The position numbers and the translations under genes were made by a program. DNA of 64,000 nucleotides, taken from the NCBI GenBank assembly GCA_902605445.1, contig CACLCL010000002.1, forward strand, positions 1 to 64,000. The letters are read 5' to 3'. Of this stretch, positions 1 through 12,435 are shown piece by piece. Below the pieces are notes generated by a model. It saw only the letters and a list, made by a program, of their open reading frames with translations, had not been told where the DNA came from and made no database searches. Every line of letters begins with the position of its first letter. The first letter of the stretch is position 1. The DNA is from an uncultured Bacteroidota bacterium. GTDB lineage: Bacteria > Bacteroidota > Bacteroidia > Flavobacteriales > Flavobacteriaceae.

Positions 1-2
1 CT

Positions 3-590
3 GACAAAGAATCGTTTTGTTACAATGGAATCTTCAAAACGATTCATAAAGAAATTTTAAAATCTAAAGAGAATTTAAAAGTAATTGACTTATACAGAGA
101 TAGCTTTACAAGACCCAGAACAAAAGTAATTGAAAAGTACAAAGAATTAGTGCTATGGAGTAACAGAATGTATATAATATCTCCTGTATGGTGGTTTAGA
201 CTAACACCAAGAATGGAAGTTTTCTTTGATGAGGTGTTAACACCTGGTTTCGCATACAAATTTGTTAATATTACAAAAACATATGCTTATCCAAAACCCT
301 TTCTAAAAGATAAAATCGTTAGGACATATATTACTCACGGTGCTCCTGCATTACCAGTAAAAACTCTCTACTTTAACTCTGTAAAACTTAGATTAGTAAT
401 GGGGGTTTACAGTTTTGTTTTTGGTTGGAAACTTTCATTGTGGTTTAAGACTAAACAATTTTGGTCTGTTCCTTTTGTTAGTCACAAAAAGAGAGAAAAA
501 TATTTAAAAGTTGTTCAAAATGATACCAAGAGAGATTTAAGAAAGAGGTTTTTTTCCAGAAAATTTGAACCAGCACTAAATTCAAAATAA
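3..590 (+). CDS. NAD(P)H oxidoreductase, flavodoxin-like fold (5' partial at window edge)
   Basis: Frame is open from the window start (DKESFCYNGIFKTIHKEILKSKENLKVIDLYRD...) and continues into the listed ORF; 'MYIISPVWWFRLTPRMEVFFDEVLTPGFAYKF' is typical of the flavodoxin_2/MdaB-like family. Confidence 0.75.
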   Translation, partial: DKESFCYNGIFKTIHKEILKSKENLKVIDLYRDSFTRPRTKVIEKYKELVLWSNRMYIISPVWWFRLTPRMEVFFDEVLTPGFAYKFVNITKTYAYPKPFLKDKIVRTYITHGAPALPVKTLYFNSVKLRLVMGVYSFVFGWKLSLWFKTKQFWSVPFVSHKKREKYLKVVQNDTKRDLRKRFFSRKFEPALNSK

Positions 591-1007
591 ATGCTAAAAA
601 GATTTAACACAAATGACTATTTAGTTAGGATACCTCTTTTTATAATATTTTTTTGGTTTGGTATTCTCAAGGTTTTAGATTTATCTCCAGCTACTGAACT
701 GATAATTGATACAGTATTTTGGATGCCATTTCTTCAGCCAGAAACATGGACAATTATTATTGGATATTGGGAAATGGCTATTGGATTGTGTTTTCTAAAC
801 AAAAAAACAACTCTTATTGCTGTTGTTTTAATGTTCTTACAAATGACAGGAACTTTTTTACCCCTAGTCATTTTGCCTGAAATTACTTTTCAAGATTCTA
901 ACCCATTTTTACCCACTCTTGAAGGTCAGTATATAATCAAAAATATTATCATAATAACTGCAGCTCTGATAATAGGAAGGAGCTACCTAAAATTTAAATT
1001 AAAATGA
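591..1007 (+). CDS. DoxX-like/DUF417-like small integral membrane protein
   Basis: 138 aa with four hydrophobic segments; 'FFWFGILKVLDLSPATELI' resembles DoxX-like proteins. Confidence 0.55.
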   Translation: MLKRFNTNDYLVRIPLFIIFFWFGILKVLDLSPATELIIDTVFWMPFLQPETWTIIIGYWEMAIGLCFLNKKTTLIAVVLMFLQMTGTFLPLVILPEITFQDSNPFLPTLEGQYIIKNIIIITAALIIGRSYLKFKLK

Positions 1008-1189
1008 AAAAAATTATTGAAGTCTATTATCCCGTAATTTTAGCTTTTATTTGCATGATTTATTCAATTGGGCTTGGGATAAGCGGCAACACAGCAGAAG
1101 CCCAATACACCGCGCATTGGCCCGGAACCATTCTCTTATTTGCAATTGCTATTCGTCAAAGAAGAAAAGACAACAATTCAAAAAAATAG
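1004..1189 (+). CDS. small membrane protein, hypothetical
   Basis: 61 aa with a hydrophobic segment; 4-bp overlap with the upstream gene suggests translational coupling. Confidence 0.4.
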   Translation: MKKIIEVYYPVILAFICMIYSIGLGISGNTAEAQYTAHWPGTILLFAIAIRQRRKDNNSKK

Positions 1190-1192
1190 ATT

Positions 1193-1381
1193 ATGTTAAG
1201 TCCACTAATGTTTATCATCGGTTTTGTTATATTTCTTCTCTACATGTCAGGGCTCCTATGGATGATAAAAAAATCTCATGACGATCAAAGAAAAAAAAGA
1301 GAAAGAGATTCCGGTATAAAAGGTGTTGATGAAAATGATTATGACGGCGGAGGAAATTGGGGTAGATTTGACAATAAATAG
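1193..1381 (+). CDS. small single-TM hypothetical protein
   Basis: 62-aa ORF, N-terminal TM followed by a charged/Gly tail, same strand and tightly spaced. Confidence 0.4.
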   Translation: MLSPLMFIIGFVIFLLYMSGLLWMIKKSHDDQRKKRERDSGIKGVDENDYDGGGNWGRFDNK

Positions 1382-1442
1382 TTTTGTAAATACTTTTTTA
1401 ATTTTTTAATTTTTTTTTAAATTGTAGTATAATTTATCAAAA

Positions 1443-2030
1443 ATGAAAAAAATTTTTCCTTTACTTTTATTTGCTTTTTTTACAACAAATTTTTTCTCTC
1501 AGGATTACGCTGAAAACTCCAATCATGGTGATTGGAGATATTATTATGGTGATGATTATTTCTTCTTTTACAATAATAATGGAGAGGGCGTTGAAAACTA
1601 TAAGTCAATTCCAGATTTAACTATCATGTTTGAAAAGAATGAAGAAGGCACAATTAGTGTTAGGTTAGATGCAGCAGTCGTATATGTTTATGATGATAGT
1701 GGTAACGACAAAAACTATGTTGAAGTTGATATCATAATTGATAATGGGGAGATGGTCTCCTTCAACGGAAAAATTTATGATGTAACTGATGAGGAAACTC
1801 GAATATATTTGTCAAGCCCAAAGAATGGGCCACGATTTGTAAATTTATTTGAGGATATGAAAAGTGGTAAAAATATTTTTATAAGAACAACTGGGGCTAA
1901 AGATCCAATAGTATTTAAGTATAGTCTTTCCGGTTTCTCTTCAGGATATACTAAGCTAGTCAATGGATGGTCTGATTGGGTTGATAATAATCAAAATCCT
2001 TTTGATTCTAAAAATCCCTTTAGAAATTAA
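1443..2030 (+). CDS. secreted hypothetical protein
   Basis: 195 aa with signal peptide MKKIFPLLLFAFFTTNFFSQ. Confidence 0.6.
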   Translation: MKKIFPLLLFAFFTTNFFSQDYAENSNHGDWRYYYGDDYFFFYNNNGEGVENYKSIPDLTIMFEKNEEGTISVRLDAAVVYVYDDSGNDKNYVEVDIIIDNGEMVSFNGKIYDVTDEETRIYLSSPKNGPRFVNLFEDMKSGKNIFIRTTGAKDPIVFKYSLSGFSSGYTKLVNGWSDWVDNNQNPFDSKNPFRN

Positions 2031-2833
2031 AAACAGGGGCTTTTTGTAACTTTTCTATATTGAATTTCCCAGCACTTTTTCGAGTTTATATAACTTTTAA
2101 CCAATAGATTATTACTCAAAATTTCAAATCTGATTTCAATTTTAGCTGATTGTTGAGTGGATCTAGCACTTATTATATTTTTTCTTCTTGACAAAGTTGT
2201 AAATAGTTCTAATTTGCCACTTTGTTTATCGTCACAAATAGTGATACTTAAATCAGAGTTATTTATTGATATCCCTTTTACTTCATCAGTAATAACAAAA
2301 TCATCTTCATTTGTAGAATAATTAACTTTATCCAGCCTCCAATGCGAAAACTTACCACTTGATTTGTATTTATCATTGTAATTTACAGAAAGAAAATCAA
2401 CCGAATCTCTTAATCTAATCTGGTCATTCATTAAAACAAAATTTATATTCTCCAACGAATCTACTTCGAAGCGAAATCTAACCAGCAAATTGTTCAGGCT
2501 ATCGAGTAATAATTTTTGATAATTCTCAGAATTAACTAAGTCATCATTTTTATCATTTAACAAGTTGATTAAAGAGTCTCTTTTTTTGTCATTTACAAAC
2601 TGTATTGTTTTTAATGAATCAACTGTTTTATTATGAGAATTGGAATTGTATTTAATTTCATTTTTGAGAACATTTGTTCTTTTGATAAGTGAATCGTTTT
2701 TAATTTTTTGATCTATTAAACTATCATGAGTTGATTTGTAAAAAATCCTCAATTCCTTTTTACTCATTTTAGTATAATCCTGTGAAAAGGAGAATGTGCT
2801 AATCAAAAAAAAAGTCAGAAATATTTTTTTCAT
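2027..2833 (-). CDS. secreted coiled-coil hypothetical protein
   Basis: Signal peptide, then 'SQDYTKMSKKELRIFYKSTHDSL' and heptad-like region; N-terminus resembles the ORF at 3352-4104. Confidence 0.6.
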   Translation of the reverse strand: MKKIFLTFFLISTFSFSQDYTKMSKKELRIFYKSTHDSLIDQKIKNDSLIKRTNVLKNEIKYNSNSHNKTVDSLKTIQFVNDKKRDSLINLLNDKNDDLVNSENYQKLLLDSLNNLLVRFRFEVDSLENINFVLMNDQIRLRDSVDFLSVNYNDKYKSSGKFSHWRLDKVNYSTNEDDFVITDEVKGISINNSDLSITICDDKQSGKLELFTTLSRRKNIISARSTQQSAKIEIRFEILSNNLLVKSYINSKKCWEIQYRKVTKSPCF

Positions 2834-2846
2834 AAAAAAAGGAAAA

Positions 2847-3338
2847 TTAACCTTTCTTTTTTGGCTTTATAATTGGAATATTTGATACTGAAAACATTTT
2901 CCATTTCTTATCAACTAATTTATACATGTACAAGCCTCTTCCTTTGTAAATGCGTCTGTAATTACTATCAAATCTTGAATATGTTGCATCAAAAAGAACC
3001 AATTCCTTAGATAACCAAACTATTCTAGATTTATCTAGCATACTATATTTATAATCATTTTGAAGATTATTTCTTAAATACTTATAAACCTTTACTAATT
3101 CATCCTCATTTTTAATTACCATGGGCTCGCCAAATAATGAAAATGTTACAGGATATGTAAAAAAACTTACAATCTTATCATAATCAGCATACTCAAATGA
3201 CTTACTATATTTTTGCCAATTATTTATGATTGTTTTTTCTACTAATGCTTTCTTTTTGTAAATAGTTTTTTTATTATTTTTCTGTGAAAATGAATTAAAA
3301 GATAATAATATTAAAACCGCAATAAGAAACTTCTTCAT
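2847..3338 (-). CDS. secreted hypothetical protein (NTF2/SnoaL-like?)
   Basis: 163 aa, signal peptide MKKFLIAVLILLSFNSFSQ; 'KSFEYADYDKIVSFFTYPVTF' is SnoaL-like in flavour only. Confidence 0.45.
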   Translation of the reverse strand: MKKFLIAVLILLSFNSFSQKNNKKTIYKKKALVEKTIINNWQKYSKSFEYADYDKIVSFFTYPVTFSLFGEPMVIKNEDELVKVYKYLRNNLQNDYKYSMLDKSRIVWLSKELVLFDATYSRFDSNYRRIYKGRGLYMYKLVDKKWKMFSVSNIPIIKPKKKG

Positions 3339-3351
3339 AATTTAAAATTTA

Positions 3352-4104
3352 TTAAAAACATATTCGATAACTGTAAGAATCAATTTCCATAGTTTCCAAG
3401 TCTAAGAAATAATATGAATCACCTATAACTTTTATTTTAGTCATTCTTTCATCATCTGATTCTGCCTCATAAAAATCACCTTCAGCATAATACTCATCAC
3501 CAAAATTTATTGTCATAATATTTTGATAATTATCATACTCCATTGAAACTATTTGAAAGGAACTTTCATAAAAATTCATCCAATATTTACCATCACTTCT
3601 AACAAAGGACACTGATGATGAATCATTTTCCGAATAACAACTACCAGTTGTTAAAACACCACCAACCCAATCATCTCTGTCTAGAAAAGATATATTCTGA
3701 TCTCTGTATATACCTAACTGATAATTAAGCTGGTTAGTGACGCTCATAATACTATCCGATAGAGCTACAATCATCTCATTTAATCCAAGATTAGCATCAG
3801 ATAATCTAGTACGTTCGTCTTTTACATTTTCAATTTCAAGATTTAATTCATCAATTATTGTTTCCAAGGAATTTATTGTCGATAATCTTTCACGATTAGA
3901 TTTTTCAGAAACCGATAAATCATCTGTCAAATTTCTATTAATATCCTTCAAATTTCTATTTACGGTGAATAGTGAGTCAATAGTGTTGAGTTTTTTTTGG
4001 TGTTCAATTCTAAGCTCTTTTTTATTCATCTTCATATAATCTTGTGAAAATGAAAAGAAAAAAGAAAAACAAAATATTGTAAAAAATATTTTTTTCATAT
4101 GCAT
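3352..4104 (-). CDS. secreted coiled-coil hypothetical protein
   Basis: 'FSQDYMKMNKKELRIEHQKKLNTIDSL' parallels 'FSQDYTKMSKKELRIFYKSTHDSL' of the ORF at 2027-2833. Confidence 0.6.
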   Translation of the reverse strand: MHMKKIFFTIFCFSFFFSFSQDYMKMNKKELRIEHQKKLNTIDSLFTVNRNLKDINRNLTDDLSVSEKSNRERLSTINSLETIIDELNLEIENVKDERTRLSDANLGLNEMIVALSDSIMSVTNQLNYQLGIYRDQNISFLDRDDWVGGVLTTGSCYSENDSSSVSFVRSDGKYWMNFYESSFQIVSMEYDNYQNIMTINFGDEYYAEGDFYEAESDDERMTKIKVIGDSYYFLDLETMEIDSYSYRICF

Positions 4105-4150
4105 TTGTTTTCGTGAAATTAAAAAAAAATATATTTTTGCAGGTCTTTTT

Positions 4151-4552
4151 ATGAAACTTTATATTAAATATTCTGATCAATTTGGAGTTACTGCAAATGT
4201 TCTTTGTATGCTACACTGTTTACTTACTCCATTTTTATTTGTTTTTCAAGCCAAAACTGCAACCTACTTTTCAGAAATTACTTTTTTTTGGGGTTTTTTG
4301 AATTATTTTTTATTAGCTATTTCATTCATAGCGGTTTATCAATCTGCTAAAAAAACTACAAATAATATTGTAAAGTATATGTTAATTACGACTTGGATGT
4401 GCTTAAGCTTTTTGATAATAAACGAAGGATTTGAACTATACCATCTCCCAGAAGCCTTAACATATGCAGCGGCTTCAACACTCGCATTCACTCACATTTA
4501 CAATCTCAAATATTGTAATTGCAAAGATGAGGAGTGCTGCGTTAAAAAGTAA
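4151..4552 (+). CDS. MerC-domain membrane protein
   Basis: 'DQFGVTANVLCMLHCLLTPFLF' Cys-His TM motif, several TMs, C-terminal 'CNCKDEECCVKK'. Confidence 0.75.
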   Translation: MKLYIKYSDQFGVTANVLCMLHCLLTPFLFVFQAKTATYFSEITFFWGFLNYFLLAISFIAVYQSAKKTTNNIVKYMLITTWMCLSFLIINEGFELYHLPEALTYAAASTLAFTHIYNLKYCNCKDEECCVKK

Positions 4553-4554
4553 AA

Positions 4555-5838
4555 TTAGTTTTTAATTATTTTTTCTATTGTTAGGTTAGTTCCATCATCC
4601 AACATAATAATATACATTCCCTTATCCAAAGAACTAATATTAAGTCTGTCATCCATTTTATTTATAAAAACCTTTTTTCCATTCAAATCAAAAATGCTCA
4701 CATCTATATCATGATTGTTATCAATGAAAATATAATCAGAACTCGGGTTTGGATATATTCGAAAGGTTTTTGGAAGCTTATTTTGAGTACTTAGAGGATA
4801 GCCAAAAGAAACATTATCAAAATAATACACAACGTCTTCATTGCCAATATTACCGAAATTAAAAAATAACGATGCTAAATCAAATATGTAATCAAAGTTC
4901 AGTTCTGCTGTTCCAGCAGCTTGGTTTGAAAAATCAAATTCTATTGTTTCCCATTGACCTGAAACTGTTGTATATGAGTCGGTTTCAACTGAATGAGAAG
5001 GATTATTTGAGTCTTCAATTTTTAATCTTATTGGTATTCCAATCTCATCTGTTCCCGAAACATAAACATGCACATACATTTTTGTTTCTGTTTCAGAAAC
5101 AGGAATATCATTAAGAAAGCCAGCAGCGGTTCCTATTGTCACACCTGCCCAGCTTTCAGCATTTGAATTTTTTTCTACACGAGCATAATTACCATCAATT
5201 GTTTCCAAAATTGTTGATGGACCATTACCCCCAAAGTCTGTTAATACGTAATATACACTTGAATCCTCAAACGTAACCGGTAGATCCATTTGCGATAATC
5301 CATTACTAGGGTCAGATTGAAATATGTCATCAAAATAAAAAGTAGAGTCTAAAGTACCATCTCCTATATTACCAAAATCAAACATTAAAACTAATTTTCT
5401 GTATGTGTTTGGGGGTTCTCCTGAAAAATCCCAGCTCAAAATTTCCCACTCATTTGTTTTTGTCGTAAAAGCATCTCTTTCAGTTGCTGGTTCGGACGGA
5501 AATTCGCCTTGATCTCCCTCAATTTTAAATTTTACTAATAATCCAGGATGTGGGGATAAAACCCTCATATTGATTGTAGTATTTTCAGAAAAATCTAAAT
5601 AATCGTCAAGCTCAATATAACTTCCTGCCCATATATCACCACCATCTCTGATAATGACACCTACATATTCACTTGGGTTATCATTGTCGATTTGTGGGTT
5701 GTACACTACATAGCCCGAACCACCATTAAAATGAACAAAATCATGATTTTCAATTTGATTGTTTTCAAAATCAATGGGTAAAGAAATCTGAGAATTCAAA
5801 GCTAGTGGAAGTAAAAATAAATGTAAAAATCGTTTCAT
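4555..5838 (-). CDS. T9SS-exported protein with two CBM-like domains
   Basis: Two similar modules ('LPIDFENNQI...IWAGSYIEL' and 'LPVTFEDSSV...SWAGVTIG') and C-terminal 'FRIYPNPSSDYIFI...ISSLDKGMYIIML' T9SS type A domain. Confidence 0.7.
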   Translation of the reverse strand: MKRFLHLFLLPLALNSQISLPIDFENNQIENHDFVHFNGGSGYVVYNPQIDNDNPSEYVGVIIRDGGDIWAGSYIELDDYLDFSENTTINMRVLSPHPGLLVKFKIEGDQGEFPSEPATERDAFTTKTNEWEILSWDFSGEPPNTYRKLVLMFDFGNIGDGTLDSTFYFDDIFQSDPSNGLSQMDLPVTFEDSSVYYVLTDFGGNGPSTILETIDGNYARVEKNSNAESWAGVTIGTAAGFLNDIPVSETETKMYVHVYVSGTDEIGIPIRLKIEDSNNPSHSVETDSYTTVSGQWETIEFDFSNQAAGTAELNFDYIFDLASLFFNFGNIGNEDVVYYFDNVSFGYPLSTQNKLPKTFRIYPNPSSDYIFIDNNHDIDVSIFDLNGKKVFINKMDDRLNISSLDKGMYIIMLDDGTNLTIEKIIKN

Positions 5839-5856
5839 GATTAGTAAAATTAATAT

Positions 5857-6993
5857 TTAATTTTTAGTGATAATATGAGTTGTTGTGTTAATTTCATCTT
5901 TCAGAACAAGTATGTAATTACCTTTTTCCAAACAGCTAATATCAATTTTATCCGTTATTAATTCATTAATAACCTCTTTTCCTGAAAGGTCAAAAATAAC
6001 AGCTTTAAAATTTTTGCTGTGATTTAAATAAATGTGTGTAGAAGAAGGGTTTGGAAAAAATTTAAGATTTGAGGGATTAAGGTTGTTTACATTTAAATTT
6101 GCAGCTAATAAATATTCTAATGCATCATTGGCCATTTCTTGAGCATTATGTCCAACATTAGGCACAGTATATAATTCCCAGTTAAAAAAAATATTAATCT
6201 CTTCAGCGAAAGACATACTGTAAATATAAAAATAGTTACCTCTATCAAATCTATTTAACCCTTGTTGATTATCTAAGACATTATTATGTCTAAGACCTGC
6301 TGAATTGGGATCATTATCATTTTCACCCAAGTGTACAATCAATTTATTAGAAAATATATTTATTAAGTCTGACTCATAAATTTCACTATTATCAATTCCA
6401 TAAGGAAAACTTATTCCATATTCGGGGACGGTATACCATCCTGCATTTGAACAAACGGCAATTTCAACACGGCTCTCTGGAAGAAACATTAATAATCTGT
6501 GCAAAAATTGAGCACCTCCAGAGTGTCCCCAAGCTTTATATCCCGTTTGTGTTCCATTAATATCATTCACTATTAAATCGAACAAGGGATCTATAACCGA
6601 AAAAGTCCATTCATTTTCGGGGTTTCTAGTTTGTGGTGTTGGATTATCACCGTCGACATACACATTTCCCATAAGATAATCATCCCCTAAACCAGGGTAA
6701 TAATCATCAGAAAATTGGGGGGCAATAACGATAAAATTATTATCATTTGCCATATCAATCCAAAAGTCACGATAATCGTCAGCATTACGTGAAGCACCAT
6801 GGAAAGAAAATAATATTGGCATTGTTGTTATGTCACCTGAAGGAATATGAAAATAAACTTCAATTGGTTTATCATCAAGCGGGCTTTCAGGGATAAATGT
6901 AAAATTTCCTGTTGTGTTTGGACTTAAATTTTGAGAATTTATAACTGAAAAATAAAACATCAGTAGCAAAAAAAAATATAATTCTTTTTTCAT
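5857..6993 (-). CDS. T9SS-exported alpha/beta hydrolase (esterase-like)
   Basis: 'PILFSFHGASRNADDYRDF', 'GHSGGAQFLHRLL' (nucleophile GxSGG), C-terminal 'LKFFPNPSSTHIYL' sorting domain. Confidence 0.75.
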   Translation of the reverse strand: MKKELYFFLLLMFYFSVINSQNLSPNTTGNFTFIPESPLDDKPIEVYFHIPSGDITTMPILFSFHGASRNADDYRDFWIDMANDNNFIVIAPQFSDDYYPGLGDDYLMGNVYVDGDNPTPQTRNPENEWTFSVIDPLFDLIVNDINGTQTGYKAWGHSGGAQFLHRLLMFLPESRVEIAVCSNAGWYTVPEYGISFPYGIDNSEIYESDLINIFSNKLIVHLGENDNDPNSAGLRHNNVLDNQQGLNRFDRGNYFYIYSMSFAEEINIFFNWELYTVPNVGHNAQEMANDALEYLLAANLNVNNLNPSNLKFFPNPSSTHIYLNHSKNFKAVIFDLSGKEVINELITDKIDISCLEKGNYILVLKDEINTTTHIITKN

Positions 6994-7799
6994 TGTTTCT
7001 TATTTTTTTTAAAAAAATCAATTATAAGTTTCGTGTCTCTTGTTCTCCATCTGTGACCATCATTATGTGTAAACCAAACTAAATTACCTTTTCTGCTTTT
7101 GTAATATTCGGTTAGAATATTATCATTCCAGTATCCAATATATTTAGCTTTTTTTTCTTTAATTATATGATTAACTAATTTTTTTTGTCTTGAAAAACTG
7201 TATTCTTTTTTGCCAGAAGTGTGAAAAATTGGGATTGAGGGGAGGTTCATTTCAGTAATATTTTCAAGACCTACGTTTGCAGTAATTGCAGGTGCTGCCG
7301 CTGCAAAAACCTTAGGCCTTAATTGTATTAATATATATGTGAATGTGCCACCATTTGAAGATCCTGTACAATAAATCCTCTTATCATCAATTGGAAAAGT
7401 ATTTAAAAAATAACTATACATAAAATCAAAAAACTTAACGTCTCTATTCTCATAATCTCCAATTTTGAATTGCCAACCTGTTTTTTCTGCATTAATATCC
7501 CAGGGTGATTTTGAATTAACTCCTTGAGGAAAAACAACTATTGCCTCCTTCCAAAACTTATGTACTGGAAATCTTTTTATAAATCTTTCAGCACTTCCAC
7601 CGTGTCCGTGCCATACAAAAATTAACGGGGCATTTTTTAAAAACTGCTTTTCAGGTACATATACTATTGCACTTCTTTCAATCCCATTAACCTTCCAGAA
7701 TTTTAATGAGATATTTTTATCAAAATAACTATCATCAATATTTTGGTGTTGCGCAGAGGAAAGAAGTGGGATAAATAGTAATAGAATTAGCTTTTTCAT
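6990..7799 (-). CDS. PHB depolymerase/LpqC-family esterase
   Basis: 'PLIFVWHGHGGSAERFIKRF', 'YCTGSSNGGTFTYIL' (GxSNGG), 'HNDGHRW'; signal peptide. Confidence 0.75.
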   Translation of the reverse strand: MKKLILLLFIPLLSSAQHQNIDDSYFDKNISLKFWKVNGIERSAIVYVPEKQFLKNAPLIFVWHGHGGSAERFIKRFPVHKFWKEAIVVFPQGVNSKSPWDINAEKTGWQFKIGDYENRDVKFFDFMYSYFLNTFPIDDKRIYCTGSSNGGTFTYILIQLRPKVFAAAAPAITANVGLENITEMNLPSIPIFHTSGKKEYSFSRQKKLVNHIIKEKKAKYIGYWNDNILTEYYKSRKGNLVWFTHNDGHRWRTRDTKLIIDFFKKNKKQ

Positions 7800-7830
7800 T
7801 GGAGGAGAAAGTTAATAAAAAAGCTGGAAT

Positions 7831-7875
7831 TGAGCCAATGCCGAGAATTGAACTCGGGACCTCTTCCTTACCAAG
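7831..7875 (-). repeat. att-like tRNA-Thr(GGT) 3'-half fragment
   Basis: 45/45 identity to 11102-11146; ends within the anticodon loop, and the D arm and 5' acceptor strand are absent. Confidence 0.85.
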
Positions 7876-7974
7876 TAAAAACCCTAAATGATCAATAGGA
7901 AAAGGTTAGACTATAATTGTTGAGTTTCTTAACTATTTATAAAAGTGTCAATTTATAATATTAAAAAATATTAT

Positions 7975-7982
7975 TATATTTG
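7975..7982 (+). promoter_or_regulatory. candidate Bacteroidota -7 box (TATATTTG) for the AIPR gene
   Basis: Matches TAnnTTTG upstream of the ATG at 8056; no well-spaced -33 TTG seen. Confidence 0.3.
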
Positions 7983-8055
7983 AGTATTATTAATCGATCG
8001 ACTTGAACATCAATGCTATAGAGCGAGTTCTAACAAGATCACTAAAACAATTAAA

Positions 8056-9258
8056 ATGAATAATACACACTCTTCGAGTGACGATCACATCGTTGCTCTT
8101 CAATTCAAAACAATCAGAAACATTTCATCAAAAAGAGACTCCTTCAAGGGAAGGAAAATTCTTGTTGGTTTAGTAGACACCACTGAATTACTAAAGCTTG
8201 GTAAAGACTCTGGTGACGGTAAATTAACCACTAATGTTGCTGATAAAAAAGCTAATGTTAGAGATGCTGTTGTAGCAAAAAAAGGAAAAATGATTTCGGT
8301 AAAGACAGGAGTCACTAAAGAAATCTACAGTAGTCTTGAAAACGAACCTGATATTTTCCATTTCCTTAATAACGGAATCACTATTCTGTGTGATAGAAGT
8401 GAGGAAAATAAGGAAAAACCTGGTTATTTATCTCTGAAAAATCCAAGTATTGCTAATGGTGGTCATACCCACGATGTAATTAGAGCTTTTCACCATAATC
8501 ATCCTGCATCCAACGATGCACTTTGTAAAGTTGAAGTTATATATGTTGACATAAAGCATAAAGAAAATCAGGATTTAGATGATGAAATTTCAATTGCTAG
8601 AAACACCCAAAAGAAAGTAGCTGATGTAAGTATTGCTGGTAAAAGAGGTATTTTAGATGATCTTCATTGGCTTAATAATCAGGATATTGGGAGATCAGAA
8701 ACTGATAAACATAAATTTGACCCACTAAAACTTCTTCAAGTTACCTTTTTATTGTGTCCAGATTCTATGTGGAATAAGTGGGAAGATAGAAACCTAAACA
8801 GAGCATCAGTATACAGTGCAAAAAGTAGCTGTTTAAAAACATACAGAAAATTTCATAATGATAACTTGGAGGCTAAGAAGTTTATTGATAAGGTCAGTTC
8901 AGAAGCTTTAAAATTATATTTTGAGTTTCAAAGAACAGATATAATTAAAGGAATGTTTAAACAAATCAAAAGTGACTCTTACACAGACCTTGGTGATGGC
9001 AAGTATCGACTAAAAGATGGATGGATTCTACCAATAATCTCTGCTTTATCACACTTTTTGGATACCAAAACCTTCAAGGTAAATATGCCAAGTGAGAAAC
9101 TATTGCGTGGAATTATTGCTAGTATTTATGAAAGCGGGTATGAAAATGAGAAAAATGTTCAGTTACTAGGAAAAAATTCTCAATCTTATACACAAGTTCT
9201 TAGATTACTTCAATCTGAATTTGATCTTGAGTCGCTAGGCAAACAAACGTTTAAGTAA
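8056..9258 (+). CDS. AIPR (abortive infection phage resistance)-like family protein
   Basis: 400 aa; 'DIFHFLNNGITILCDR', 'SLKNPSIANGGHTHDVIRAF', 'VEVIYVDIKHKENQDLDDEISIARNTQKKV' match the NNGIT / (V)NGGQT / IxxxxNTQ architecture of AIPR proteins. Confidence 0.7.
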   Translation: MNNTHSSSDDHIVALQFKTIRNISSKRDSFKGRKILVGLVDTTELLKLGKDSGDGKLTTNVADKKANVRDAVVAKKGKMISVKTGVTKEIYSSLENEPDIFHFLNNGITILCDRSEENKEKPGYLSLKNPSIANGGHTHDVIRAFHHNHPASNDALCKVEVIYVDIKHKENQDLDDEISIARNTQKKVADVSIAGKRGILDDLHWLNNQDIGRSETDKHKFDPLKLLQVTFLLCPDSMWNKWEDRNLNRASVYSAKSSCLKTYRKFHNDNLEAKKFIDKVSSEALKLYFEFQRTDIIKGMFKQIKSDSYTDLGDGKYRLKDGWILPIISALSHFLDTKTFKVNMPSEKLLRGIIASIYESGYENEKNVQLLGKNSQSYTQVLRLLQSEFDLESLGKQTFK

Positions 9259-9280
9259 AATTTAGTAAGGAAATCAAGTA

Positions 9281-9396
9281 ATTCCCGAGAATTCAACTCG
9301 GGAGTTCTTCCTTACCAAAGAAGATATAAGAATATAAATCAAAATATTTATGAGGAAAAGGTCAGCAGGCACTTATTTAGCGCTCTTTAGTTACTG
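9281..9396 (-). other. degenerate, split tRNA-Thr-like element
   Basis: T-arm and anticodon-arm copy at about 9284-9324 (ccgag-aattcaa-ctcgg; tcttccttaccaa[a]gaag), then about 55 nt, then 'agcgctct...actgag' resembling the D-arm half of tRNA-Thr(GGT). Confidence 0.5.
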
Positions 9397-9575
9397 AGTG
9401 AATTTCTCTTATTAATAAAACACTCAATAGCCTGTAGTTTTCCCACCTCCCACTCTCTCCAGCTGTACTCTCTTTCAACGTGAGGAAACATCATCAAACC
9501 ACATTCTCAATGTTGAATATCTAAAGTGTGGAATAGCTCGTGAAACATTATATATGCCCTTTTCGAGGGAGATGC
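9387..9575 (-). pseudogene. truncated HExxH (metzincin-like) metallopeptidase remnant
   Basis: Minus-strand frame reads ASPSKRAYIMFHELFHTLDIQH*ECGLMMFPHVEREYSWREWEVGKLQAIECFINKRNSLSN*; HELFHTLDIQH fits HExxHxxxxxH, with a downstream 'MMFP' Met-turn-like segment; in-frame TGA at 9507-9509 and no 5' portion. Confidence 0.45.
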
Positions 9576-9576
9576 A

Positions 9577-10944
9577 TTATTCATTTCTATTACAGATAGG
9601 ACCTAACATTTTTTCATATTCAGGGTTTCCTAGTTCAGCAGCTTTCTTGACATCTGCACACGCCCCTGAAACGTCATTAATTGTTGCTTTTGCAACTCCT
9701 CTAACTCCAAAAGCGTACGGAAGATTTGGTTTTAGTTCAATAGCCTTGTTACAATCAAAAATTGCCTCATAAGTTTTTTTAATAAATATTTTAGCTTCAG
9801 CAATTCTCACATATATATTATATGCTTTTGGGTTACTAGGATAATATTCTAACCCTTTTTCTAAATCTTTTATACCCCCTTCTCTATTGCCTAATTTTAT
9901 TCTGATGTCTCCACGTTTAAGATATACGTTTGGATTAGCATATTCTTCACCATTTTTTTCATATAATTCAATTGCTTTTGAGTAATCTTTTTCAGCTTGA
10001 ATATTGTCACCATCAGAAACCTTGGTGTCTGCCTGGGACTCATAATACTCACCTGGTAGCTCTTTGCCACTCTCTTTTCTAGCAAAGGCTATCAATTCGT
10101 TTCTTAAAAAATCAGAAAGTTTTCTAACATTTTCAGGAAAATCTGATATATTACTTAAAGGTATATCTTCTAAGTCTTTAGGGAATATTTGAATTCTTCT
10201 AATAGCATCTGCAGTATTTGGAACCTGTTGTGCTCTCGGAAATTTTTCTAAAAATTCATCTAATTTTGCGTCAGGAACATTATATGTTCTATAGTCATAT
10301 TCCCATCGTGTCAAATCTGTTCTAATAACACCATTTTCATCAAATTTAGGTTCGGGTTTCATCCACTCTTTTGGCTCCCAAAAGCTTTCCATCTCTTCAT
10401 CATAATCTGGAGTATTTGATGTTTCAAAATGAATTTGCCATAGAAGTCCTACAAATCTGTCTATTTGATTTATATCCCCAAAATTATATGATTCAGTAAT
10501 ATTTAAATCTCGATATATTTTTTGATTATTTATTTTATTAATTTTTAAAAAATTGACAATTTTTTCTTTAGTTATTATTTCAGAAAAAAACGACATTATA
10601 ATTTTATAATTAATTCCTTTTGAAGATACGTCTATGTGTCTAATACCTCTCCGGTCCCAAATTAATTGGGCAACAAAATTATAATGGTCTTTAACTTTTG
10701 AGTAAGGATAAATAAAGTTACTTTCTGGCGAATAGTCTGGTTGATCTGAGTAATAAAACTCTTTACCTCCCTTTTTTAATTCAAATCTGGAACTAATGCT
10801 CAAACCACTCATCATAAATTTTGGGTCATCATAAAAGATGTCCTGTTGTCTTGATAGTTCTTTTTGCAATGATTCAATCGACATAACCTGTGACATTGAG
10901 CTCAGTGAAACCAGTAGCGTAACCGTAAGTATTAGGTATCTCAT
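9577..10944 (-). CDS. secreted TPR-repeat protein
   Basis: Signal peptide MRYLILTVTLLVSLSSMSQ; C-terminal TPRs ('ESQADTKVSDGDNIQAEKDYSKAIELYEKNG', 'AIFDCNKAIELKPNLPYAFGVRGVAK'). Confidence 0.65.
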   Translation of the reverse strand: MRYLILTVTLLVSLSSMSQVMSIESLQKELSRQQDIFYDDPKFMMSGLSISSRFELKKGGKEFYYSDQPDYSPESNFIYPYSKVKDHYNFVAQLIWDRRGIRHIDVSSKGINYKIIMSFFSEIITKEKIVNFLKINKINNQKIYRDLNITESYNFGDINQIDRFVGLLWQIHFETSNTPDYDEEMESFWEPKEWMKPEPKFDENGVIRTDLTRWEYDYRTYNVPDAKLDEFLEKFPRAQQVPNTADAIRRIQIFPKDLEDIPLSNISDFPENVRKLSDFLRNELIAFARKESGKELPGEYYESQADTKVSDGDNIQAEKDYSKAIELYEKNGEEYANPNVYLKRGDIRIKLGNREGGIKDLEKGLEYYPSNPKAYNIYVRIAEAKIFIKKTYEAIFDCNKAIELKPNLPYAFGVRGVAKATINDVSGACADVKKAAELGNPEYEKMLGPICNRNE

Positions 10945-11103
10945 AGTTTTAGTTGATTATTATATCTACAAGTTAGTGAAAAAGTTATATATATTTTAGG
11001 TATATGTCTTGGCAAGAGGACTATCCAAAACGTCAGTTTACATTTGACCTAAATTTGACCTTTACTTAAGAAAAAGATAGTTGAAAATGGCTATTAACAG
11101 ATG

Positions 11104-11175
11104 AGCCAATGCCGAGAATTGAACTCGGGACCTCTTCCTTACCAAGGAAGCGCTCTACCACTGAGCTACACCGGC
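11104..11175 (-). tRNA. tRNA-Thr(GGT)
   Basis: Full cloverleaf GCCGGTG...CATTGGC; anticodon arm CTTCC-TTGGTAA-GGAAG; T loop TTCAATT. Confidence 0.93.
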
Positions 11176-11538: not shown

Positions 11539-12435
11539 TCAGTTTTTACTCTTACTTCTGGGATGAGACTTTTTGAAAATTTTTTTTACTTCTTCAATCG
11601 ATCGGTTTGTGTAAACCTGGGTTGCAGCTAGGCTAGAATGGCCTAACAAGTCTTTTACAGAATTTAAATCTGCACCATTGTTTAATAGATGGGTAGCAAA
11701 AGAATGCCTTAGAATATGTGGACTTTTTTTGACTTTTGAGGAGAACAATTCAAAATATTTTTTGGTTATTCTATAAACCAATTTATCGTACATTTTTTTT
11801 CCACTAATTGTTAAAAACAAATAATCCTCATCAATTATATTTTCTATTTTTTTTCTAAATTCTAAATAAGTGTAAATTAATTGAATTGACGAGTCAATTA
11901 AGGGTATAAATCTTTCCTTATTTCTTTTTCCAAGGACCTTTATTGTTTTATTGGAAAAATCAATGTTATTTATTTTTAAACCTATCAGTTCCTGCCTTCT
12001 GACTCCAGTACTGTAAAGCATTTCTAATATTAGAAAATCTCTATATCCTTCAAAGTTCTTATCAAAATTGCTTGGATTTAGTGTTTCTGATATTTCAGAT
12101 TCTGAAAAAGGAAGTTGGATTGTTGATTTAGTTTTTAAAGCTTTGTGTCGTTGTAATGGGTTACTTTTAATTGCTTGAATCTTCATTAAAAATTTATAGT
12201 ATGTATTTAAACTTGATATCTTTCTGTTGACAGTGGCATTTGAAATACCAGCATTCACAAGCTCCACTATCCATGCTCTAATGTGTGTATAATCTGCTTT
12301 ATCTATATAAATTATCTCAAAAGCTTTTTTACAAAATTTTTTAAATGAATTTAAATCATTTTCGTAGGCAATAATTGTCTTGGGCGAATATTTTCTTTCA
12401 AGAGATAGATATTCAAAAAAAGGATTAAAACTCAT
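11539..12435 (-). CDS. xerC: tyrosine recombinase XerC/XerD
   Basis: N-terminal SAM-like domain; 'STGVRRQELIGL', 'SPHILRHSFATHLLNNGADLNSVKDLLGHSSLAATQVYTN' catalytic signature. Confidence 0.9.
   Translation of the reverse strand: MSFNPFFEYLSLERKYSPKTIIAYENDLNSFKKFCKKAFEIIYIDKADYTHIRAWIVELVNAGISNATVNRKISSLNTYYKFLMKIQAIKSNPLQRHKALKTKSTIQLPFSESEISETLNPSNFDKNFEGYRDFLILEMLYSTGVRRQELIGLKINNIDFSNKTIKVLGKRNKERFIPLIDSSIQLIYTYLEFRKKIENIIDEDYLFLTISGKKMYDKLVYRITKKYFELFSSKVKKSPHILRHSFATHLLNNGADLNSVKDLLGHSSLAATQVYTNRSIEEVKKIFKKSHPRSKSKN

Follow-up and report, generated by a model that had tools for sequence, protein, structure and literature searches.

How does a single AIPR-family gene come to stand between two pieces of a tRNA-Thr gene in an uncultured Flavobacteriaceae bacterium, and do those pieces matter to what its protein does? 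The question is raised by a window of 64,000 nucleotides (assembly GCA_902605445.1, contig CACLCL010000002.1, positions 1 to 64,000), in which the gene occupies 8056-9258. We consider it very likely that 7832-11145 is made up of two tandem single-gene cassettes, inserted site-specifically at the 3' half of tRNA-Thr(GGT), with the AIPR unit as prophage-type cargo. The features concerned are these:

7832-7874, minus strand: distal copy of the tRNA-Thr(GGT) 3' half, from the anticodon loop to the 3' end, the scar at the left attachment (att) site of the AIPR cassette; matches the intact gene at 43/43 positions
8056-9258, plus strand: AIPR gene, 400 aa, short AIPR core (open reading frame (ORF) call, Pfam, PADLOC, alignments)
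9285-9318, minus strand: middle copy of the tRNA-Thr 3' half, the scar that separates the AIPR cassette from the TPR cassette; 31/34 identical
9319-11102: second tandem cassette, with type-A ends (end comparison); its cargo is a TPR protein at 9577-10944, minus strand
11103-11175, minus strand: intact tRNA-Thr(GGT), the integration target (ARAGORN, Rfam)

A preliminary description of this DNA had placed tRNA-Thr fragments on both sides of the AIPR gene and had thought an att-site origin their most parsimonious explanation. The fragments were confirmed at 7832-7874 and 9285-9318, and the att-site origin is supported, as the same repeats bound cassettes in sister genomes. Both partial copies derive from the intact tRNA-Thr(GGT) gene 1.8 kb away, which that description had not named, and copies of its 3' half did not arise by chance in 100 shuffles. 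About 17 bp to the left of the distal copy also match the empty sites of three sister genomes (G576, G586 and G577).

The same locus was oriented in genomes of the same genus; the tRNA cluster was found in 17 of 21, the window's own genome included, and 16 could be read downstream. In G056, G576, G577 and G586 the site is empty, and the homolog of window 1-1380 ends 12-46 bp before tRNA-Thr. It is filled in 8/16 genomes (G000, G575, G579, G581, G582, G587, G588 and G589), where a second copy of the tRNA 3' half closes the inserted unit. G590 has a cassette-type end without a distal tRNA copy, and G572, G574 and G584 have other sequence at the site, without repeats. The one-gene cassettes at tRNA-Thr span 0.6-1.8 kb, and every unit holds one main ORF except the 4.5 kb unit of G579. 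Their cargo is mostly unrelated:

window: TPR protein; AIPR protein
G575: DUF285 protein
G587: kelch protein with a type IX secretion system (T9SS) sorting tail
G588 (L054, G588:C5, contig about 18.1-19.4 kb): PDC-S26, a PD-(D/E)XK candidate defence protein (PADLOC E 9e-123)
G582 and G589: hydrolase-like protein, 99.7% identical between the two
G581 and G589: uncharacterised 290-aa protein
G579: uncharacterised 179-aa protein

Only the hydrolase and a short signal peptide recur among them; otherwise these proteins are mutually dissimilar. Differing cargo at one site in close relatives, together with empty sites, marks the locus as an additive island. How it grows can be seen in G589, which carries the G581 cassette (97% identity) and, precisely between that cassette and tRNA-Thr, another that matches the G582 cassette at 97.5%; this before/after pair shows that the new unit entered beside the tRNA. 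Judged from these sequence comparisons, the target, the scars, the tandem order, the empty and filled sites and the interchange of cargo are established. The suggestion that AIPR forms a one-gene cassette is likewise supported by the att copies and the sister genomes, the unit being 1.44 kb long with one main ORF.

The cassettes are also related by their ends. The ends of the TPR cassette have 87-97% DNA identity to those of the G581 and G582 cassettes, although its cargo is unrelated, and these three type-A right ends are 95-97% identical over about 120 bp. Related type-B ends occur in G575, G579, G587, G588 and G589. In 6/10 cassette right ends we found 9-mer direct repeats with an 11-bp period (ATTTGACCT and TATTTATCC), starting 61-64 bp from att. 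A repeat was accepted at >=8/9 matching positions, which random local 100-mers reach in 0.9% of cases (0.08% for 9/9). In the TPR cassette they begin 61 bp from att:

11042-11061, plus strand: two ATTTGACCT direct repeats, 11-bp period, arm-site-like (9/9 match, against 0.08% of random 100-mers)

The 4.5 kb element of G579, at the same tRNA-Thr, has 9/9 repeats of its own (TAAAAGTTC) at both ends with the same 11-bp period, the right-hand set lying at 65 bp. This element (L060, G579:C10, contig about 35.4-39.9 kb) has replaced the tRNA 3' half with a divergent version. It encodes a 597-aa protein in which a tyrosine-recombinase-like motif was seen by eye. Pfam and PHROG gave no match for this protein, and relatives numbered 0 elsewhere in the genus and 0 in viral contigs, with weak domain matches only in the family. 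The 11-bp-period repeats of the six cassette ends and of this element suggest mobilisation in trans, by integrases such as the candidate encoded there. A tyrosine recombinase (the probable class) would swap strands near the anticodon-loop core CTTCCTTACCAA, and each insertion would keep the tRNA functional and place a surplus 3' half on the side of the cassette away from it. Because the cassettes contain no integrase, the recombinase would be supplied in trans by transient integrase-bearing elements.

Other recombinases were considered. The genomes of the genus otherwise hold essentially only XerC and XerD, and these are the only PF00589 proteins of the window's own genome, which is 68% complete. 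One of the two adjoins the tRNA cluster:

11539-12435, minus strand: XerC-like core recombinase (profile searches, sister-genome comparison)

It is unlikely to be the cassettes' own integrase, since sister genomes have this core gene whether or not they carry cassettes, empty sites included. Neither the integrase of G590 (beside tRNA-Asn) nor that on contig C6 of G579 has arm repeats of type A or B close by, and attP-like patterns gave 0 matches in IMG/VR. In G590 (G590:C8, L110 7321-8554) a 347-aa integrase gene directly adjoins tRNA-Asn; beside it lies a row of short genes for secreted proteins whose leaders and flanks recur, which may be another cassette site. We tentatively propose, with slightly more doubt than confidence, a genus-wide system that is both integron-like and like miniature inverted-repeat transposable elements (MITEs): integrase-less one-gene cassettes with conserved arm-type ends would be recognised in trans by the integrases of elements like the 4.5 kb one of G579, inserted in tandem at tRNA-Thr(GGT), and so carry secreted-enzyme and phage-defence genes between species.

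The AIPR unit itself fits this subgroup of conserved-end cassettes in one respect only, a left-end AGGAAAAGGT motif:

7897-7910, plus strand: AGGAAAAGGTTAGA, 12/14 matches to the AGGAAAAGGTCAGC motif of type-A cassette left ends (dinucleotide shuffles)

A 12/14 match was reached in 0/5000 dinucleotide shuffles of the 60-bp end and in 10/2000 random local 60-mers. The motif lies 22 bp past the att core, the distance being 34 bp in the other cassettes, and the gene is oriented opposite to most cassette genes. The unit, with its atypical ends, may be immobile. As the 7832 copy is perfect and the middle copy altered, we favour a scenario in which the unit came with a divergent half-site of its own and entered the surplus distal att that the TPR cassette had created; it is less likely that the unit once sat directly at tRNA-Thr. 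The middle copy has a further property:

9265-9315, plus strand: strong RNA hairpin on the altered T-arm copy, a possible transcript 3'-end structure (folding versus shuffles)

This hairpin, formed by the middle copy and sequence upstream of it when folded on the AIPR strand, starts 6 nt past the AIPR stop codon and has a predicted energy of -22.8 kcal/mol (z -4.9, 0/200 shuffles). The two other tRNA-Thr copies fold no better than shuffles (z -0.5 and -0.2). The middle copy may thus have been turned into the 3' end of the AIPR transcript, a suggestion based on one sequence.

As to the protein, the ORF was found on the plus strand with all three motifs first named for it, and its proposed family held up in a profile search: the product matches PF10592 (AIPR) at 79.1 bits against a gathering cutoff of 25 (E 6e-22), covering profile positions 13-273 of 308. 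Long AIPRs, mostly in frames of 530-870 aa, begin their AIPR domain at residue 233-270, after an N-terminal domain with the signature DG-x(2)-D...GIDAIyI...LvQsK that appears PD-(D/E)xK-like by eye. Like the AbiU1/AIPR proteins (PF10592; AbiU and MzaE in PADLOC), the window protein keeps N67-x-R69, F101, N106-G107, N134-G135 and I178-x(4)-N183-x-Q185 in its core; unlike them it has neither the ~200-aa N-terminal PD-(D/E)xK-like domain nor partner genes, and in the NG-x-QT motif H replaces a nearly invariant Q, at position 137. PADLOC aligned it to AbiU and weakly to MzaE, in the AIPR part only. It is not an AbiU (long AIPR), since the alignment spans 218-356 of 537 and the N-terminal ~190 aa are absent, nor an MzaE, at 21.9 bits against an NCBIfam equivalog cutoff of 1050 and with ten scanned neighbours that lack PADLOC matches.

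It belongs instead with a group of short prophage AIPRs of about 385-400 aa, with which it aligns end to end and which conserve RNIS, NVR, NG, EISI-x-RN-x-Q, SIAG and GK. Its best relatives, alignable throughout at about 30%, come from Tritonibacter mobilis, Rhizobium and viral contigs. Scans of viral and genome contigs with one protein confirmed no close homologs; a two-sequence alignment used as query then recovered the Rhizobium protein and three viral contigs. The prophage proteins (371 aa in Podoviridae sp. ct8nN1; L072, L073, L074 and L113) resemble it in size (~370-400 aa), in consisting of the AIPR core only and in being single cargo genes, and the four that were fetched align end to end with it at 30-32% identity. 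They differ in lying in viral contigs with phage genes, whereas the window gene lies in a Bacteroidota tRNA cassette. The L072 gene adjoins phage portal and terminase genes, that of L074 a major head/protease gene; L073 has endolysin and integrase genes on the same contig, and the L113 gene is near an integrase. On plasmid p2 of Tritonibacter mobilis (L009 4868-9152) the short AIPR has a reverse-transcriptase gene and an integrase in its vicinity, and the whole may be another small defence locus. AIPR matches occurred in 44/396 sampled Bacteroidota genomes, with a whole-length match to the short model in the window genome only; by this comparison the protein is a rare short AIPR form. No solved structure was found in the AIPR family. 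AlphaFold models of the protein are weak (predicted local distance difference test scores of 57 and 62), and a viral fold search with the low-confidence model ranked the 371-aa phage AIPR first (E 4e-7).

What the protein does is suggested mainly by this company. Because the nearest relatives lie mostly in prophages, anti-phage cargo is likely, and we lean slightly towards prophage-type exclusion or defence as its function. The same tRNA-Thr slot holds PDC-S26 in G588, which counts for defence cargo. The N-terminal domain of DndB has been placed in the AbiU1/AIPR family, which is linked to restriction-modification operons (PMC3506569, PMC2292703), and an AIPR gene also occurs in defence hotspots of P4 satellites (PMC9122126). 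The mode of action is probably DNA-directed: on somewhat better than even grounds, the short AIPR core, which is probably a module that binds nucleic acid in the manner of DndB or ParB, would hinder incoming phage DNA. A wider defence island can be rejected, as PADLOC gave 0 matches among the ten neighbours scanned. The surroundings of the gene, which had been called non-coding, are so at 7800-8055 and 9259-9576 only.

Several points weigh against two cassettes with the AIPR gene as defence cargo. The cassettes carry no integrase of their own and no cognate one was identified; the genomes compared are incomplete assemblies, the window's own at 68%; the acceptor part is gone from the 9285-9318 copy; and no report of defence activity of short AIPRs was found in the literature. 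The AIPR unit has no 11-bp-period arm repeats at either end, so that it falls outside the conserved-end subgroup, and it was seen in one genome only; its own mobility is therefore something we infer. That absence of arm repeats would suit an eroded remnant of a larger integrative element, a prophage or satellite with its integrase deleted, as would the fact that short AIPRs are typical prophage cargo and that the same tRNA in G579 hosts the 4.5 kb element encoding the recombinase-like protein. We nevertheless think this improbable, as the TPR cassette is complete, with ends like those of cassettes in other species, and units with one gene are found repeatedly, with precise ends and in one case as a before/after pair; for the AIPR unit alone such an origin is less improbable. 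The missing nuclease-like N-terminal domain also weighs against defence, and it speaks for a regulator or an accessory protein that binds DNA, comparable to DndB, with host or element DNA as its target. The structural model gave weak, non-significant fold matches to DNA-sulfur-modification proteins, ParB-N, SspE and BrxU that point the same way, the matches in the PDB being a lead only. Such a role, which is compatible with the cassettes, seems to us unlikely but worth keeping in mind: the gene stands alone, the neighbours tested having no defence or modification genes, and the prophage-cargo distribution of its relatives suits exclusion or defence.

It had also been proposed that the AIPR protein senses or targets tRNA, or that the fragments act as decoys. 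Their proximity to the gene, and the strong hairpin that the right-hand copy forms in the AIPR transcript, could be taken to favour fragments that are functional partners of the protein as sensor, target or decoy RNA. The same fragments, however, surround unrelated cargo in seven sister genomes, and a search for AIPR homologs that also lie beside tRNA-Thr fragments found a tRNA T-arm in the fetched flanks of 0/35 distinct loci (6 short, and 29 long with flanks of only about 1.5 kb). Neither ARAGORN nor Rfam calls the 7832 or 9285 fragment a tRNA, and on the AIPR coding strand both are antisense to the tRNA. Neither sensing nor decoys are thus supported, and we regard a functional partnership as very improbable; as far as the sequences tell, the fragments beside the AIPR gene are integration scars without a role in protein function.

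Other parts of the window bear on the locus less directly. Between the core flank and the distal tRNA fragment lie 6.4 kb (1381-7831) of mostly secreted-protein genes, of which 4121-5859 is common to G581 at 70% identity. The gene at 6990-7799 is possibly what is left of a third, truncated cassette whose end is the 7832 scar. Among secreted proteins of the genus that are not otherwise related, many open with a near-identical DNA leader, ATGAAAAAGCTAATACTATTACTATTTATTCC, which encodes the MKKLILLLFIPLV signal peptide and is about 88-100% identical in DNA over 32-55 nt; we found it at 7768-7799 (minus strand) in the window, in the cassettes of G575, G582 and G589, at L110 1417, 3813 and 6632, and at L111 4247.

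Cassettes flanked by direct repeats of tRNA fragments have been described in 'Candidatus Actinomarinales' (PMC7771536), and in island fGI-2 of the Methylophilaceae the repeats consist of the final 20 bp of tRNA-Lys (PMC10872708). The cassettes described here likewise grow additively and vary in cargo between close relatives; they differ in being mostly single-gene, in their conserved subterminal ends with 11-bp-period repeats, and in lying at tRNA-Thr(GGT) of Bacteroidota. With tycheposons they share integration at tRNA genes, variable cargo and streamlined aquatic hosts, but tycheposons are 4-200 kb with a tyrosine recombinase (PMC10872708), whereas the cassettes here are 0.6-1.8 kb without one; the AIPR unit, 1.44 kb with one main ORF, is not a tycheposon. 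Like integron cassettes and clusters of attC sites lacking integron-integrases (CALIN arrays; PMC11389934), they are tandem one-gene units without a recombinase of their own, recombined in trans, but the attachment site here is a tRNA 3' half, and no integron platform was seen, no attC search having been made. Thus tRNA-repeat cassettes are already known in other streamlined aquatic bacteria, and it is the conserved ends of integrase-less one-gene units that are possibly new.

These ends make the question of which integrase moves integrase-less cassettes directly testable, and an AIPR form without the nuclease-like domain offers a handle on what the AIPR core does alone. In these related marine bacteria the tRNA-Thr site offers a defined, common docking point in which unknown cargo can be sought, as with PDC-S26 in one species and AIPR in another. 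More generally, candidate phage-defence genes can be gained singly even by small genomes in which few mobile elements are recognisable.
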